From positions 1 to 64,000 of IMG/VR virus record IMGVR_UViG_3300029448_000014: a DNA stretch of 64,000 bases. One strand, given 5' to 3'. Below the pieces are notes generated by a model. The model saw only the letters and a list, made by a program, of their open reading frames with translations. It was not told where the DNA came from and did no database searches. Each line of letters begins with the position of its first letter. Within the stretch, counting starts at the first letter, position 1. Below, piece after piece: positions 1,083 through 33,640 of the stretch. The translations under genes and the position numbers were made by a program. Source of the stretch: a virus.

Positions 1083-1523
1083 ATGTCAAAATTTTCTAGC
1101 TGGTTTTCTCGTTGCGCAGGAAGTTGGAAGTCATACAGGCGATATTTAACGTTGCCTTCCTATAACGACGATTCATACAATACTGAATTTACAATTAAAG
1201 TAAACGGTGACAATGTCAATATTAATTGGAATGGGAATGTGAGCTCAGGTGATATGAACCTCACAATTGATGGAGATATCTTGCATCGTGACATTGGTTA
1301 TTTCAGTGATGAACCAAATGACAGCAAATTGACCCTGCTTGATGTTGATACAGTTGTTTTGAACAGTGCCTATAACGGCATGGAATTCCGAGAGGAGATC
1401 CGTCTGCTCGATGACGACAGCCATCGTCTACGGCAAACCGTTGGATATCGAGACAATAAACCTTTTCTAGTGGGTCAATACTGGGAAGAACGGATGCCTG
1501 TGGAAAACTTTGCCATTGACTGA
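1083..1523 (+). CDS. cpeS: CpeS/CpcS-like phycobiliprotein lyase
   Basis: A 146-residue protein resembling the CpeS/CpcS (S-type) lyases, lipocalin-like proteins that attach bilins to cysteines of phycobiliproteins. Seen: N-terminal FSSWFSRCAGSWKSYRRYL, matching the family opening FF..SaGkW.SqRt; a beta-rich middle; and a C-terminal half with YNGMEFREEIRLL, HRLRQTVGY and GQYWEERM, which mirrors the family ending of a Glu-containing strand, an RLRT strand and a final E-R-M strand. Cyanophages are known to carry such lyases. The conserved residues are few and the alignment is by eye, so identification is probable rather than certain. With the NblA-like gene at 5050 it suggests manipulation of phycobilisomes or their pigments. 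Confidence 0.55.
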   Translation: MSKFSSWFSRCAGSWKSYRRYLTLPSYNDDSYNTEFTIKVNGDNVNINWNGNVSSGDMNLTIDGDILHRDIGYFSDEPNDSKLTLLDVDTVVLNSAYNGMEFREEIRLLDDDSHRLRQTVGYRDNKPFLVGQYWEERMPVENFAID

Positions 1524-7028: not shown

Positions 7029-7090
7029 TTGGAAACTCCATAATTGGGTGAAGATTCCCGTTCCTTCAGTCCTGTCTGACCTACTTGCGT

Positions 7091-7156
7091 CTTGTGGATC
7101 ATAAATTACAAATGGTTAACGACAAAGATATTTGTAGTTAACGAGTGATCCACAAG
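7091..7156. promoter_or_regulatory. large inverted repeat between two - strand genes
   Basis: Perfect 11-nt outer arms CTTGTGGATCA (7091-7101) and TGATCCACAAG (7146-7156), with inner 7-nt arms TACAAAT / ATTTGTA and a GTTAAC site on each side of the centre. The 66-bp nested palindrome could form a cruciform or RNA stem. There is no T tract, so a terminator is less likely than an operator or RNA element. Confidence 0.5.
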
Positions 7157-7173
7157 ATGAACGTATTACTATT

Positions 7174-19768: not shown

Positions 19769-20401
19769 TTAACCCCACATTGCGCGAGATATATTTGGAA
19801 GTTCAGTGTCAAGAATTTCACCAACTGACCTTGCAATCTTCATATGCTCTTTTTGGGTACCATTTTCTCCGCGTAAAGCTACGTAATGAAGCCAACTTCG
19901 GATTGTTCCTGACATATAAAGCCTGGTCACAGTATTTAGTGGCAGAACAGCACGTGCACATTCTTTAGCTACATCTGAATGCAACAGAGATTCATACAAA
20001 TTGACTGACTCTCGAAAGTGATCGTCGATTCTATTCTTATAATATTCTAAAGTTTCTTTAGGTAGGTCATCAATAGAGTTCTGCCTATTGCTTGTGTCTT
20101 GTCTGCGTAATTCAGGAAGAACAGTTGCAAAAGTGTCTGTAGGAATCGCGTACCGTTGAGAAAACTCTTGAAAAGAAAAACTACGATGACGCAAAATCTG
20201 TGAAGAAATAGCGCGAGTCGTATGAATTTCAATGCACATTGATGCCATTTCGAATGGGCTCCAATGCTTATGTTTGATTAGATACTTAAGTAGTTTCTTT
20301 GAATCAGGATTGTTTTCATTAGAAGGATTGGAAACTCTAGCAATTTTTCCAATAAGTTGTTCAGCATCTGGAGTTACCCAGATGAGTTTAGCGCTGTGCA
20401 T
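19769..20401 (-). CDS. thyX: flavin-dependent thymidylate synthase
   Basis: 210 residues. The ThyX signature RHRSFSFQEFSQRY (71-84) fits the family motif RHR-x7-8-S-x-R-Y. The N-terminal helices and a C-terminal RSWLHYVALR are also typical. It makes dTMP from dUMP using methylene-tetrahydrofolate and FADH2, and sits beside the ribonucleotide reductase genes, forming a nucleotide-supply module common in cyanophages. Full length, probably active. Confidence 0.93.
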   Translation of the reverse strand: MHSAKLIWVTPDAEQLIGKIARVSNPSNENNPDSKKLLKYLIKHKHWSPFEMASMCIEIHTTRAISSQILRHRSFSFQEFSQRYAIPTDTFATVLPELRRQDTSNRQNSIDDLPKETLEYYKNRIDDHFRESVNLYESLLHSDVAKECARAVLPLNTVTRLYMSGTIRSWLHYVALRGENGTQKEHMKIARSVGEILDTELPNISRAMWG

Positions 20402-20934: not shown

Positions 20935-21669
20935 TTATGCGTATTGAGGTAAGTTTTGGTTGGCAGTTTCAAAAAAAGCTGGCATTCTGCTAGCTCTTGT
21001 TTCCGCTAGACCTTCGGCTTTTCCACGGGTGTACAAGCTATCTGAACATCCCAGCCAGAAGTTCGACGAGAGATGCTTGTTATCTGCTTCCCCTTTAAGG
21101 GATTGAAGCACCCAAGCAACCGTAGCTCTTCTAAGGTTATTGAGCTCTTTGTCAGACGTAAGACCGAGCTCTTGGCAGACGAGGGTGTTGGCTGCGACGT
21201 GGGTAGTTTCGTCTCTGCTGATATCGGCGCTTGTAGTACGTAATCCTGTATCTCCGAGGAATCGGAAGATGGGGAGGAGAACGAAGAAAACACTACGCTC
21301 CAACACAACTGCCTTGAGGACTGGATGTCGGTCGAGTTCGAGCCACGCTTTAGTAATGCGCGAAGCTTCCTTCTCAATCCGATCGGGGATTCGATGCGCT
21401 TTAGCAGCGAAATTGAGGGCAATATCATGGTTATCTTCATCTTTAACGTTAGAAAGCAGCAGTTCTTTACATCCTTCAATATTAGGTAAGTCGCCTTTCA
21501 TTGCCTCTGCAATAAAGTTACCAACAGGAATCTCTAAACTTCGCAATGCAAGTGCTCGTTGTACTGCTTCTTCACCACCAATTAGTAGTTTACCAGCAGA
21601 TACTTGAACAGGTGTCCAAGTTCTTTTACGCTGATGAAGGTGAATATAAGGTGTTGCTGCTTTTGTCAT
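20935..21669 (-). CDS. nrdB: ribonucleotide reductase small subunit, Tyr-less
   Basis: 244 residues, ferritin-like. Two ExxH metal motifs are visible: E78-D-N-H81 and E154-T-T-H157; Glu46 and Glu124 complete a dimetal site with class I spacing between Glu124 and Glu154. At the place of the radical Tyr (four after the first His) there is Leu85, so a classical tyrosyl radical cannot form here. This fits the short cyanopodovirus-type class I RNR clade that was long annotated as class II. The C-terminal residues should dock to NrdA, encoded directly upstream. Confidence 0.8.
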   Translation of the reverse strand: MTKAATPYIHLHQRKRTWTPVQVSAGKLLIGGEEAVQRALALRSLEIPVGNFIAEAMKGDLPNIEGCKELLLSNVKDEDNHDIALNFAAKAHRIPDRIEKEASRITKAWLELDRHPVLKAVVLERSVFFVLLPIFRFLGDTGLRTTSADISRDETTHVAANTLVCQELGLTSDKELNNLRRATVAWVLQSLKGEADNKHLSSNFWLGCSDSLYTRGKAEGLAETRASRMPAFFETANQNLPQYA

Positions 21670-21687: not shown

Positions 21688-23115
21688 TTATTCAGCACAA
21701 CCGACACAAAGTGTTGGGTCAGTGAATTGATCTAGGTTAGGTACAGCATCAGTCTCATCATCAATATCATTGAAGTCAAATAAATCACCAAACTGATTAT
21801 CGAGTGCAACCATGGCATCGTCTTTAGCTTGTGTATTTTGATTTACTTGTAATGAGTAATACATACTTGTTTGCGGTGAAGTTAACCACTCATCAATAAA
21901 TTGATCAGTATAGGAAACTACATCGCTCCAAGTGTTGTAGCTGTAACCGTGACATAGATTAGTACGCATCAGCATTTCCATAATGCCGTTAACAACTTGT
22001 GTGTAAACAGGCCAACCAACTTGATCAGCTGTTTCAACGTTGCCGTAGTCATAATGTTCTACGCCAAATGTAGAGCTGTCCCTATCAACTTTGCGCCCAA
22101 TCGGTGGTGCGATTTCGGGTGCAGTTGTATAGCCTGCTCGGTCTTTGTAGCGATATGAGCAAGAGGCCGTTGGTGCAATTGCAAATGCTCGATCCATGTT
22201 GGCGGATTTAGCAATGTCAGCTGCAGCATTGATACCTGCTTGAAGTGCTTTTACAATCTTAATAGCTTCAGGAGTCACTAAATAATCACCATCAGCATAG
22301 AGGTGATAGTTAAGCGCATCAGCAAATTGAGCATATGTAACCCCTTCCAATGAAAGGAGATTAGCAAGACCAAGCATTCCTAAACCTACTTGTCTATCAT
22401 CTTCTTGAGAAAGATACTCGCCAGTTTTCTCAACACCGGTTTTTGCATGAAGCTCGATGAGCTGTGTCATTCCCGTAGAGAATGCACCAACAATATCTTC
22501 TGGACGACAACCGCCTAGTGATATGTGTTGTAACAAGCAAGTGCCCCTTGATTTGAGAAAAACTTCAAGGCAAACGTTGGCATAAATACGTTCGCCTTTA
22601 TTATCTTTTCGAATCTTCGCTAACCAAATATCGCCACGTGAGATGCCCTTAAGAATTGCATTACGTACTTCTTCATTTGCATTGTTCCACATCTTTTCAT
22701 TAAGATTAATGCAACGTTTAGCCCATGGAATTTCGTGACGTGGTGTCTCAATGAACTCAAGGATATCTTTGTGTTCAAGGTCTAGATGCAGGACAACCGC
22801 ACCATTTTTGTAGACACCGCCTCTGCGGAGCTGCTCATTAAGACAGCTATATATTTTGCCAAAAGAGACTGGACCAGAAGCTACCAGACCTTTACCGTTG
22901 TCTTCACCTGCAGCACGAAGCTTACTTAAATGAACAGCTACTCCTGCCCCAAATCTCAATCCGTGGCTGACATAGCGCCAGCTAGCCTCAATGCCATTAC
23001 GGCCTTCCATACTATCTTCAACTACAAAAACGGTACATGAAACGGGCAAGCGGCTAGTAGGGTCATCAATCCAATTTTGAACGCGACCAGTGCGGGCTAT
23101 TAAATTATTTTCCAT
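21688..23115 (-). CDS. nrdA: ribonucleotide reductase large subunit, short form
   Basis: 475 residues, far shorter than the 700-850 of host enzymes and without an ATP-cone. Catalytic residues: Cys27 (PVSCTVF), the N-x-C-x-E motif NVCLE (Cys182, Glu184), Cys193 (GTCLLQ), and the phosphate loop region APTASCSYRY. The C-terminal tail ends CVGCAE, with the redox pair Cys470/Cys473. It reduces ribonucleotides together with the Tyr-less small subunit. The thioredoxin-like protein at 24492 is a plausible reductant. The start overlaps MazG by 11 nt. Confidence 0.88.
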   Translation of the reverse strand: MENNLIARTGRVQNWIDDPTSRLPVSCTVFVVEDSMEGRNGIEASWRYVSHGLRFGAGVAVHLSKLRAAGEDNGKGLVASGPVSFGKIYSCLNEQLRRGGVYKNGAVVLHLDLEHKDILEFIETPRHEIPWAKRCINLNEKMWNNANEEVRNAILKGISRGDIWLAKIRKDNKGERIYANVCLEVFLKSRGTCLLQHISLGGCRPEDIVGAFSTGMTQLIELHAKTGVEKTGEYLSQEDDRQVGLGMLGLANLLSLEGVTYAQFADALNYHLYADGDYLVTPEAIKIVKALQAGINAAADIAKSANMDRAFAIAPTASCSYRYKDRAGYTTAPEIAPPIGRKVDRDSSTFGVEHYDYGNVETADQVGWPVYTQVVNGIMEMLMRTNLCHGYSYNTWSDVVSYTDQFIDEWLTSPQTSMYYSLQVNQNTQAKDDAMVALDNQFGDLFDFNDIDDETDAVPNLDQFTDPTLCVGCAE

Positions 23116-23545
23116 AGGTATCGTAGTCAGTTGATGTTGTTTGTGGAACGCAGTCTTGGAGATTCGGAGGCATATAATTAGGACCTTTCAATACCTTACC
23201 GTCAGCCCTATAGATGGGTTTTCCTTGTTCATCTAGTTTACTCATATTAGAATCGTAAACGCGCTGCATTGCTTCATCTAGGTCAAGATTAAACGCAGCA
23301 GCAAACTGATAGCAAACAAAAACAACGTCAGATAGTTCTTTGAGAAGATTTATTCGTTTTGCATTGTTTTCGGGGTCTGCATATACTTCATCAGATGCAT
23401 CTAAAAATTCCTTTGACTCTTCACAGATAAGGCCAACTTGCATGTCCCATAATTGCTTTTTGACGAAACCATAACGGGACAGATTGTCAAGTGATTCTTG
23501 ATTAAATGTTTCGCGGAATATTTGTGCTTGTTCTTGTAATGTCAT
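23105..23545 (-). CDS. mazG: MazG-family pyrophosphohydrolase
   Basis: 146 residues of the all-alpha NTP pyrophosphatase type: EESKEFLDA (the ExxE(x)12-28ExxD pattern), then LKELSDVVFVCYQFAAAFNL and DSNMSKLDEQGKP, with GPNYMPPNL near the end, as in phage MazG-like proteins. Metal residues Glu/Glu and Glu/Asp are present. MazG in cyanophages may adjust (d)NTP pools or, as proposed, ppGpp; the latter is debated. Overlaps nrdA by 11 nt. Confidence 0.88.
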   Translation of the reverse strand: MTLQEQAQIFRETFNQESLDNLSRYGFVKKQLWDMQVGLICEESKEFLDASDEVYADPENNAKRINLLKELSDVVFVCYQFAAAFNLDLDEAMQRVYDSNMSKLDEQGKPIYRADGKVLKGPNYMPPNLQDCVPQTTSTDYDTYGK

Positions 23546-23546
23546 T

Positions 23547-23774
23547 TTATTTTTCTCTTAAGATAATGCGTCCTCTTGTTAAGTCAAAAGGGCTAAGTTC
23601 GACAGTGACACGGTCACCAACTAATAGTTGAATCTTCCGTGTAATAAGTTTACCTGAAGCACGACACAAGCATTTGTGTCCTTCAGGCTCCTCTAATTCA
23701 ACGTTAAAAAAACCGTTGCCACTCTCTTTAAAAATCAGCCCCTTCGCTGATATTACGTTTGTTTTTTTGGACAT
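23547..23774 (-). CDS. infA: translation initiation factor IF-1 homologue
   Basis: 75 residues over the full length of bacterial IF-1 (about 72), an S1-type OB fold. Seen: GLIFKESGNGFFNVELE at strands 1-2, LCRASGKLITRKIQLLVGD, and RVTVELSPFDLTRGRIILRE, the family's most conserved end. IF-1 binds the 30S A site and helps start-codon selection. The core surface residues look intact, with an unusual Cys pair in CLCRASGK. The gene sits in the nucleotide operon, 1 nt from mazG, not near ribosomal genes. Whether it competes with host IF-1 is unknown. Confidence 0.92.
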   Translation of the reverse strand: MSKKTNVISAKGLIFKESGNGFFNVELEEPEGHKCLCRASGKLITRKIQLLVGDRVTVELSPFDLTRGRIILREK

Positions 23775-23895
23775 AAGGCAAGTAATAAAAAATATATGTG
23801 ATTAATCCAGTTGCTTCGTTTTCAGTTATGAATTTCCAGTCAATAGGACATTCAGAAAGCCATTTGTTAAATTGTTTGCGTTCTGTTTCGTTCAT
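23728..23895 (-). CDS. small hypothetical protein (55 aa)
   Basis: 55 residues from ATG 23895 (MNETERKQFNKWLSECPIDW at the start). It overlaps the 5' end of infA by 47 nt in another frame. Composition is protein-like, with aromatic and charged residues, and it starts just after the stop of the upstream small gene. No family assigned. Confidence 0.55.
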   Translation of the reverse strand: MNETERKQFNKWLSECPIDWKFITENEATGLITYIFYYLPYVQKNKRNISEGADF

Positions 23896-24310: not shown

Positions 24311-24495
24311 TCAGGAGAGATTGGTAGAGATACATGTAAATATTCAGCTTCTTCTATTAATTCAGACGGGGAGTATTCGCCCCATCCGTCATATAGAAGT
24401 TGTTGAGCAATTTCAAAGATTTCTTCTTTAGAAGCATCTTTTAAAATAGCATCAGTAAGTGCAAACTTGAGTTCTTGAATTTGTTCGTCTGTCAT
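24307..24495 (-). CDS. hypothetical protein (62 aa)
   Basis: 62 residues, helical, opening MTDEQIQELKFALTDAIL and ending with an acidic segment (LIEEAEYLHVSLPISPE). Overlaps neighbours by ATGA on both sides. Not recognised. Confidence 0.6.
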   Translation of the reverse strand: MTDEQIQELKFALTDAILKDASKEEIFEIAQQLLYDGWGEYSPSELIEEAEYLHVSLPISPE

Positions 24496-24842
24496 TCAGG
24501 AGGATTTGCGTAGGTATAAGCTTCAATGGTGCTATCAAGTGCATCGATGATTGCATTGGCACCAATGAATGTTTCAACAGGTTCTTCTGTATAGTCACAG
24601 TCTTCATCACCCTCGGCGTCAACTTCACAGTGGAGACCTTCGTAGGTAACAACCAAGGTAGGTGTTAGCTCGACTCCAAGCTCCTCTGCAAGGGCTGTGT
24701 AGTTACCGTTAGGTGCACGTAGAGGTACGTAATGCAACGCACTCTGTTGAGCTTCTGTAAGGCAACTTACGTGAGCTTTAAGTCGTTCGCAAGGCGGACA
24801 ACCTGGTTGAGTGAAGACATATAGTTCGTACTGTTTCATCAT
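24492..24842 (-). CDS. thioredoxin-like protein
   Basis: 116 residues with a thioredoxin/glutaredoxin fold: strand ELYVFTQPGCPPCERLKAH carries the redox CPPC at 15-18, and VELTPTLVV contains the conserved cis-Pro. An acidic insertion with two further Cys (CEVDAEGDEDCDYTEE) is unusual. It probably reduces the C-terminal cysteines of the nearby NrdA. Coupled by ATGA to both neighbours. Confidence 0.8.
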   Translation of the reverse strand: MMKQYELYVFTQPGCPPCERLKAHVSCLTEAQQSALHYVPLRAPNGNYTALAEELGVELTPTLVVTYEGLHCEVDAEGDEDCDYTEEPVETFIGANAIIDALDSTIEAYTYANPPE

Positions 24843-27181: not shown

Positions 27182-27376
27182 TTAAAAGATGCCAGGGATA
27201 AGATCACCTGTCAGTGCATAAGCACCAATTGCTGCAATAACACCAAGCATTGCTAGGCGCCCGTTGAGCTTTTCTGCTTTTTCGTTGTGTGTCACGGAAA
27301 TCTCCATTACTTGCATTTGAGGCTCTGTGGCGTAAATATTTGTACGTCCGCCGTCTTCAGTTACTGTTGTCATCAT
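27182..27376 (-). CDS. hli: high-light-inducible protein
   Basis: 64 residues. The single transmembrane helix carries the chlorophyll-binding signature EKLNGRLAMLGVIAAIGAYA (ExxNxRxAMxG), as in host Hli/SCP proteins and LHC helices. The hydrophilic N-terminus (about 35 residues) is typical of phage versions. Acts in thylakoid membranes, protecting or assembling photosystem II. Close to psbA, as often in cyanophages. A family hairpin follows its stop by 48 nt. Confidence 0.93.
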   Translation of the reverse strand: MMTTVTEDGGRTNIYATEPQMQVMEISVTHNEKAEKLNGRLAMLGVIAAIGAYALTGDLIPGIF

Positions 27377-28034: not shown

Positions 28035-28421
28035 GTGAAGACCTGCAGTATATGCAGGCAATCGTTGTCAGAAGATAAATTCCACAAGAGAACTTATAAG
28101 ACTGGAAAGATTGGCCTGCAAGCAAAGTGTAAATCATGTTGCACTAAAGTGCGACGAGAAAAATACTACAAGCCTCATTCGTCTATAAGACTAAAGCTAA
28201 AGCTTAGTCAAAGTGAAGTAGATGAATTGCTAGCTCCAGGTAAATGTCAATGTTGTGGCGCTAAAGATAGAAAACTATGCATAGACCACAATCACGACAC
28301 TGAAAAACCTAGAGGCTTACTGTGTCACAACTGCAACACTGCTCTAGGTCTGTTAGGAGATAACGTTGAAACTATCCTATCGCTCAGCCGATACTTGGCG
28401 CAACGAGAGCCACTGGTGTAG
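28035..28421 (+). CDS. HNH recombination endonuclease VII-like, overlaps psbA end
   Basis: 128 residues on the + strand, running head-on into psbA and overlapping its last 38 nt. It has two Cys pairs at the N-terminus (CSIC, CKSC) and the endonuclease VII core [20 protein letters not shown] / [11 protein letters not shown], with DH-N-H catalytic residues. Endonuclease VII-type HNH enzymes resolve junctions or act as free-standing homing enzymes. A homing endonuclease next to psbA is known from the cyanophage S-PM2; this looks like a parallel case. Confidence 0.85.
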
Positions 28422-29472
28422 TGGTTGCTGATGCCAAATCAAGAGGAAAGTTATGTGCATTTCTCTCATGAATCACTTCTAGCCCAAGACCAGCGCGATT
28501 AAGAATATCGCCCCAGGTGTTGACGACGTGACCCTGGCTGTCCTGAATGGACTGGTTGAAATTGAAGCCATTTAGGTTGAAAGCCATTGTACTTACACCA
28601 AGTGCAGTAAACCAAATACCAACCACAGGCCAAGCAGCGAGGAAGAAGTGAAGGCTACGGCTGTTATTAAAGGAAGCGTACTGGAAGATAAGCCTACCAA
28701 AATAACCGTGAGCAGCGACAATATTATAAGTCTCTTCTTCTTGGCCAAATTTATATCCATTGTTATGACTTTCGTTTTCAGTTGTCTCACGAACAAGTGA
28801 GCTTGTAACAAGACTTCCGTGCATAGCACTAAAAAGAGAACCACCAAAGATGCCTGCGACACCCAGCATATGAAACGGGTGCATAAGGATATTATGTTCT
28901 GCTTGGAATACCAACATATAGTTGAATGTTCCGCTGATTCCGAGTGGCATTGCATCGGAGAATGAGCCTTGTCCAAAGGGATATACCAGAAAAACTGCAG
29001 AGGCTGCGGCAACTGGTGCGCTATATGCAACCATGATCCAGGGGCGCATACCTAAACGATAACTAAGTTCCCATTCGCGTCCCATATAGCAAAAGATGCC
29101 AATAAGGAAGTGAAAGATGACTAATTGGAATGGGCCTCCGTTGTAAAGCCATTCATCAAGGGAAGCAGCTTCCCAAATTGGATAAAAGTGTAGACCGATT
29201 GCATTACTGCTAGGCACAACAGCACCAGAGATGATGTTGTTGCCATACATTAGTGATCCGGCAACAGGTTCACGGATGCCATCGATGTCCACAGGAGGAG
29301 CAGCGATAAAGGCGACGATGAAACATGTTGTAGCAGCAAGCAGTGTAGGGATCATCAAGACTCCAAACCAACCGACATAGAGGCGATTGTTGGTGCTTGT
29401 TACCCAGTCAGTGAAAGAATCCCAAGTATCTTTAAGCGGATTAGACTTGGGAAATAGTGTTGTAGTAGACAT
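28384..29472 (-). CDS. psbA: photosystem II D1 protein
   Basis: 362 residues, complete D1. Seen: [19 protein letters not shown] opening, [16 protein letters not shown] with Glu133 (canonical position 130, the high-light D1:2 form; low-light D1 has Gln), [14 protein letters not shown] containing His198-type ligands, and [20 protein letters not shown] at the C-terminus with the manganese ligands His332, Glu333, Asp342 and cleavage after Ala344 by canonical numbering. It replaces host D1 during infection to keep photosynthesis going. The 3' end overlaps the HNH gene on the other strand by 38 nt. No intron is present. Confidence 0.97.
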
Positions 29473-33439: not shown

Positions 33440-33515
33440 AGTATTTCACTTTGCTAGTAAAAAGTGTAGATTAATCCCAATTCCTATATTAACTTAGTAT
33501 TTAAGCAAAGTGATA

Positions 33516-33586
33516 CGAGACATACCAGATTCGAACTGGTACAAACTGCGAATAGGCAGTCGTGATAGCCATTTCACTAATGTCCC
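33516..33586 (-). tRNA. tRNA-like gene, anticodon arm irregular
   Basis: 71 nt on the - strand. Acceptor GGGACAT pairs with ATGTCTC (one G.U), the D arm is GTGA/TCAC with GG in the loop, the T arm ACCAG-TTCGAAT-CTGGT is perfect, and the discriminator is G. The anticodon region ACTGC-CTATTC-GCAGT gives a 5-bp stem with only six loop bases; the alternative GACTG/CAGTT pairing gives eight. With the six-base loop the anticodon would be ATT (Asn-like, consistent with G73), but I cannot decide. No CCA encoded. Either a normal tRNA of odd geometry or a decayed or specialised one. Confidence 0.7.
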
Positions 33587-33640
33587 AATAAGAAATGGGG
33601 AGGAATTGCACCTCCCCTAGTTTCAGCTATCTGTCATCTC

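Follow-up and report, generated by a model that had tools for sequence, protein, structure and literature searches.

A probable core gene for a translation initiation factor IF-1 homologue in marine S-EIV1-like phages

The DNA analyzed here (the window) comprises 64,000 nucleotides of a 73,051-bp IMG/VR virus record. On its minus strand, at positions 23547 to 23774, lies an intact ORF of 75 codons, running from ATG to TAA, whose translation is MSKKTNVISAKGLIFKESGNGFFNVELEEPEGHKCLCRASGKLITRKIQLLVGDRVTVELSPFDLTRGRIILREK. The 75-aa product passed both the NCBIfam infA equivalog model TIGR00008 (67.9 bits against a cutoff of 61.15, E 5e-19, residues 4-73) and the Pfam eIF-1a/IF-1 family PF01176 (56.5 bits against a cutoff of 30.2), confirming that it is a genuine and complete homologue of IF-1 (infA), as proposed in a first-pass annotation made from the sequence. 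It also matched PHROG 30201, which carries no assigned function. An alternative assignment, to the N-domain of RsgA, was dropped, as the Pfam match was weaker than that to IF-1 and no GTPase domain follows it.

In a sequence search of the PDB, the strong matches were to IF-1 chains only (down to 2e-15). The AF2 model of the protein (pLDDT 83) is an OB fold with five strands and a short helix (41-45) in the b3-b4 loop. IF-1 structures (4ql5, 9fco and 1hr0), 30S-bound ones included, were top-ranked when this model was searched with Foldseek, with TM scores of 0.87/0.93 against the E. coli 30S-bound chain 9fco_I and 0.87/0.92 against 1hr0_W. By homology, the 30S-binding loop of the phage protein would be LITRKIQLL.

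The IF-1 gene is part of a long run of overlapping and apparently co-transcribed genes, and its reported location beside genes of nucleotide metabolism was upheld by domain matches as well as by synteny. A gene encoding a MazG-like nucleotide pyrophosphohydrolase (23105..23545, minus strand; PF01503, 27 bits against a cutoff of 21.3) starts 1 nt downstream of IF-1 and adjoins it in nearly all relatives. Further along the same strand are genes encoding a compact, 475-aa ribonucleotide reductase (RNR) large chain (21688..23115; PF02867, NrdJ_Z-like, with the assignment also drawing on synteny), a conserved 244-aa protein that always adjoins RNR and has no Pfam or NCBIfam match (20935..21669), and the FAD-dependent thymidylate synthase ThyX (19769..20401; TIGR02170, 164 bits). 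On the upstream side of the module is a gene for a thioredoxin-like protein (24492..24842, minus strand; PF13098, 28.3 bits against a cutoff of 27, and synteny). A small ORF of 55 aa (23728..23895, minus strand), whose last 47 bp are shared with the start of IF-1, is not kept beside IF-1 in other relatives.

Other genes in the record indicate what kind of virus carries this module. These include a D1/PsbA gene (28384-29472) with 91% identity to Synechococcus phage D1, a gene for a high-light-inducible-type protein (hli, 27182-27376), which was read from its sequence and has a weak Pfam match, a gene for a CpeS-like phycobilin lyase domain protein (1083-1523, plus strand) and a gene for a family A DNA polymerase. 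For both the terminase large subunit (TerL) and the structural protein, the nearest isolate is Synechococcus phage S-EIV1. Judged by these genes, the record represents a cyanophage distantly related to S-EIV1, and a marine picocyanobacterium is the natural inference for the host, given psbA, Hli, CpeS, the family A DNA polymerase and the S-EIV1-like TerL and structural protein. The cyanobacterial setting assumed in the first-pass annotation is thus supported by psbA, Hli and CpeS. The CpeS-like protein in addition points to a host that bears phycoerythrin.

Relatives of the IF-1 gene were found in 55 viral contigs (L002-L055 and L060), with 71-100% identity. In 54 of these 55 relatives, IF-1 is followed by MazG, RNR, the 244-aa protein and ThyX in the same order and orientation; the exception is L041, where MazG is absent and RNR comes directly after IF-1. 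Contigs of the lineage that bears IF-1 are about 67-106 kb long. All seven marine contigs of more than 60 kb that were located through the lineage structural protein carry IF-1, one of them as a frameshifted copy. This frameshift, in a 67-kb contig (L052, 2875-3103), may come from faulty assembly or mark a gene in decay. Among 46 distinct homologous sequences, the median pairwise dN/dS was 0.098, showing that the phage IF-1 is under strong purifying selection, and the N-terminal MSKK is conserved among the homologues, which places the ORF far beyond chance.

The freshwater isolate S-EIV1 is related to the marine lineage in its TerL (54.6%), structural protein (44.2%) and ThyX (48%), but a profile search at maximum sensitivity found no IF-1 in its genome, and no homologues of the MazG or RNR of the marine lineage were found. 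When relatives of RNR were considered, nine of the ten with more than 75% identity were accompanied by IF-1, and the tenth contig begins at its RNR; by comparison, the 70 loci with RNR identities of 67% or less had no IF-1 within the flanks searched. Taken with its absence from S-EIV1, the distribution among RNR relatives suggests that the marine branch either acquired or retained IF-1. IF-1 appears to be a core gene among the marine S-EIV1-like phages, and the freshwater isolate is without the gene.

In a tree built from 75 alignment columns, the phage clade stood apart, with 100/100 support, from every other IF-1 sampled, whether from phages or bacteria, and the branch connecting it to the other IF-1s was long (1.27). 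As had been claimed, IF-1 is uncommon in phages of this size, at least in the annotated phage collection, where only 36 of 50,697 records matched IF-1 and the convincing phage genomes among these were at least 167 kb. One infA, in a record labeled as an Acinetobacter phage, lies beside truA and leuB and is probably host DNA, and the infA matches examined in a plasmid collection were ribosomal-operon or other chromosomal segments rather than mobile IF-1s. One infA gene each has been tabulated for WH8102 and MED4 (PMC6337551).

Phage IF-1 as such is already known from huge phages, which have been reported to encode both IF1 and IF3 (PMC7162821); Lak phages, the Sinorhizobium jumbo phage Phosso and the Jug phages likewise encode IF-1. 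The Jug phages, too, have "translation initiation factor 1A" among their conserved core genes (PMC12363816), and in Phosso IF-1 directly follows a gene for a MutT-like nucleotide pyrophosphohydrolase (L219, 1047-1713), an arrangement comparable to that of IF-1 and MazG. The sampled huge-phage IF-1s, however, fall outside the marine cyanophage clade and retain R or K at the R41 position, and their genomes are at least 167 kb, compared to the contigs of about 67-106 kb in the marine lineage. Ribosomal proteins carried by phages, bS21 among them (PMC6375957, PMC7162821), represent a similar case of a phage-borne translation component, with a suggested role in commandeering the ribosomes of the host, although bS21 is a ribosomal subunit protein and IF-1 is a soluble initiation factor. 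In the collection of papers searched, no report combining cyanophage with translation initiation factor IF-1 was found.

The phage protein resembles bacterial IF-1 (InfA; TIGR00008, PF01176) in length, OB fold, SGK motif and the SPYDLxRGRI C-terminal half. It differs by a two-residue insertion in the b2-b3 loop, by GNG(Y/F)F in place of PNxMF and by CLCRA in place of xxAHI; a search of viral contigs for the motif CLCRAAG[KR]L gave no match. In addition, while bacterial infA is located beside rpmJ/rpsM, the phage copy is located in a nucleotide operon.

A further difference concerns residues that face the ribosome. In a model of 30S-bound C. difficile IF1, the contacts to A1492/A1493 are made by R41 and R46 and those to the 530 loop by K39 and M42 (PMC10913371). 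The first-pass annotation had named the loss of key 16S-contacting residues as grounds for rejecting an IF-1 function, and the outcome was divided. Every one of the 46 phage sequences has Ile or Val in place of R41, and 44 have Gln in place of R46 (Q/H overall), but the fold is preserved and the equivalents of K39, R64 and R66 (C. difficile numbering) are kept as K/R, R/K and R, respectively. The 30S-facing residues K/R42, R67, R69, R73 and Y/F63 are also kept in the phage protein, and loop columns 43-54 are nearly invariant. As 72 of 77 other IF-1s carry R or K at position 41, whereas Q46 is seen in 11 of the 77, the loss of R41 represents the unusual change. One lead on its origin comes from a putative picocyanobacterial IF-1 sequence; it has Thr at the R41 position and, in the tree, this presumed host sequence clusters with the phage IF-1s (100/100 support). 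If so, the loss of R41 in the phages may be inherited from the host.

Start codons and Shine-Dalgarno (SD) usage were assessed for 55 genes hand-picked from the ORFs, so the counts are approximate. ATG was the start codon of 54 of the 55 genes, and SD-like motifs preceded 10 of the 55, against a background of about 10%; in S-EIV1, which has no IF-1, such motifs precede 7 of 32 genes. The description of small genes in this module as frequently starting by overlap (ATGA and similar) was accurate, but GTG and TTG starts are not common. With ATG in 54 of 55 genes and SD usage resembling that of S-EIV1, the suggestion that altered start selection favors phage messages found no support. The common tight overlaps point to translational coupling instead of altered start choice.

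With moderate confidence, we favor the explanation that, in infected cells, the phage protein supports initiation and supplements or replaces host IF-1 at the 30S A site. IF-1 would have entered an ancestor of the marine S-EIV1-like cyanophages, probably from its picocyanobacterial host or a relative, and the lineage would have retained it as a core gene in a DNA-precursor operon. Produced with MazG, RNR and ThyX during infection, the protein could lie in the A site, flanked by h44, the 530 loop and uS12, and initiation may thereby remain efficient after shutdown of host gene expression. The replacement of both arginines reported to contact A1492/A1493 argues against such a supplementary IF-1. 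It could also mean that LITRKIQLL enters the A site but does not make the usual contacts there, and changes start selection or subunit joining, favoring phage messages or damping host initiation; the nearly invariant loop, the I/V at a position that is R/K in most other IF-1s and the long, fully supported branch are consistent with a specialized factor of this type. Nevertheless, it seems rather unlikely, considering that Gln46 occurs in other IF-1s, that the presumed picocyanobacterial IF-1 also has no R41, so that the loop may come from the host, and that SD and start-codon usage does not differ from that in S-EIV1. It is, in our view, doubtful that such a loop re-tunes 50S joining or start selection on the ribosomes of infected cyanobacteria.

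RNA chaperone and transcription antiterminator roles have also been described for IF1, and the phage protein could act mainly off the ribosome in either capacity on a long early transcript. Its OB fold is related to S1 and cold-shock domains (a weak match to the S1 family was obtained in Pfam) and its gene lies among apparently co-transcribed genes, but the IF-1 equivalog model was matched rather than the Csp or S1 families, the ribosome-facing R67 and R69 are retained and the closest structures are IF1s, including 30S-bound ones, making this improbable. Two cellular matches in a genome scan (L061 and L062) raised the question of a host fragment or assembly chimera, which is already refuted by synteny, as more than 50 viral contigs have IF-1 in the same phage neighborhood. 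L061 has phage neighbors beside IF-1/MazG and its bin contains an ordinary Rhodobacteraceae-type infA elsewhere, indicating a mis-binned phage contig, and the L062 match spans only 13 residues.

If the protein does function as a supplementary IF-1, widespread marine cyanophages would act directly on translation initiation with one core gene for a 75-aa protein, carried in a genome of about 75 kb. As such factors were previously reported mainly from huge phages, a real IF-1 that looks functional and is probably core to a lineage of mid-sized marine cyanophages represents a solid, rather than revolutionary, extension. The protein is small and readily testable, its host is ecologically important, and the conserved but divergent loop poses a sharp structure-function question.

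Three additional features were identified in the window. A tRNA called by ARAGORN (33515-33587, minus strand), with an undetermined anticodon and without an Rfam tRNA match, is probably spurious. A glutamine riboswitch (glnA leader, RF01739) was found at 7055-7165 on the minus strand (39.5 bits against a gathering score of 35), and a protein of the tyrosine recombinase/phage integrase family, encoded at 1691-2497 on the plus strand, hints at possible lysogeny.
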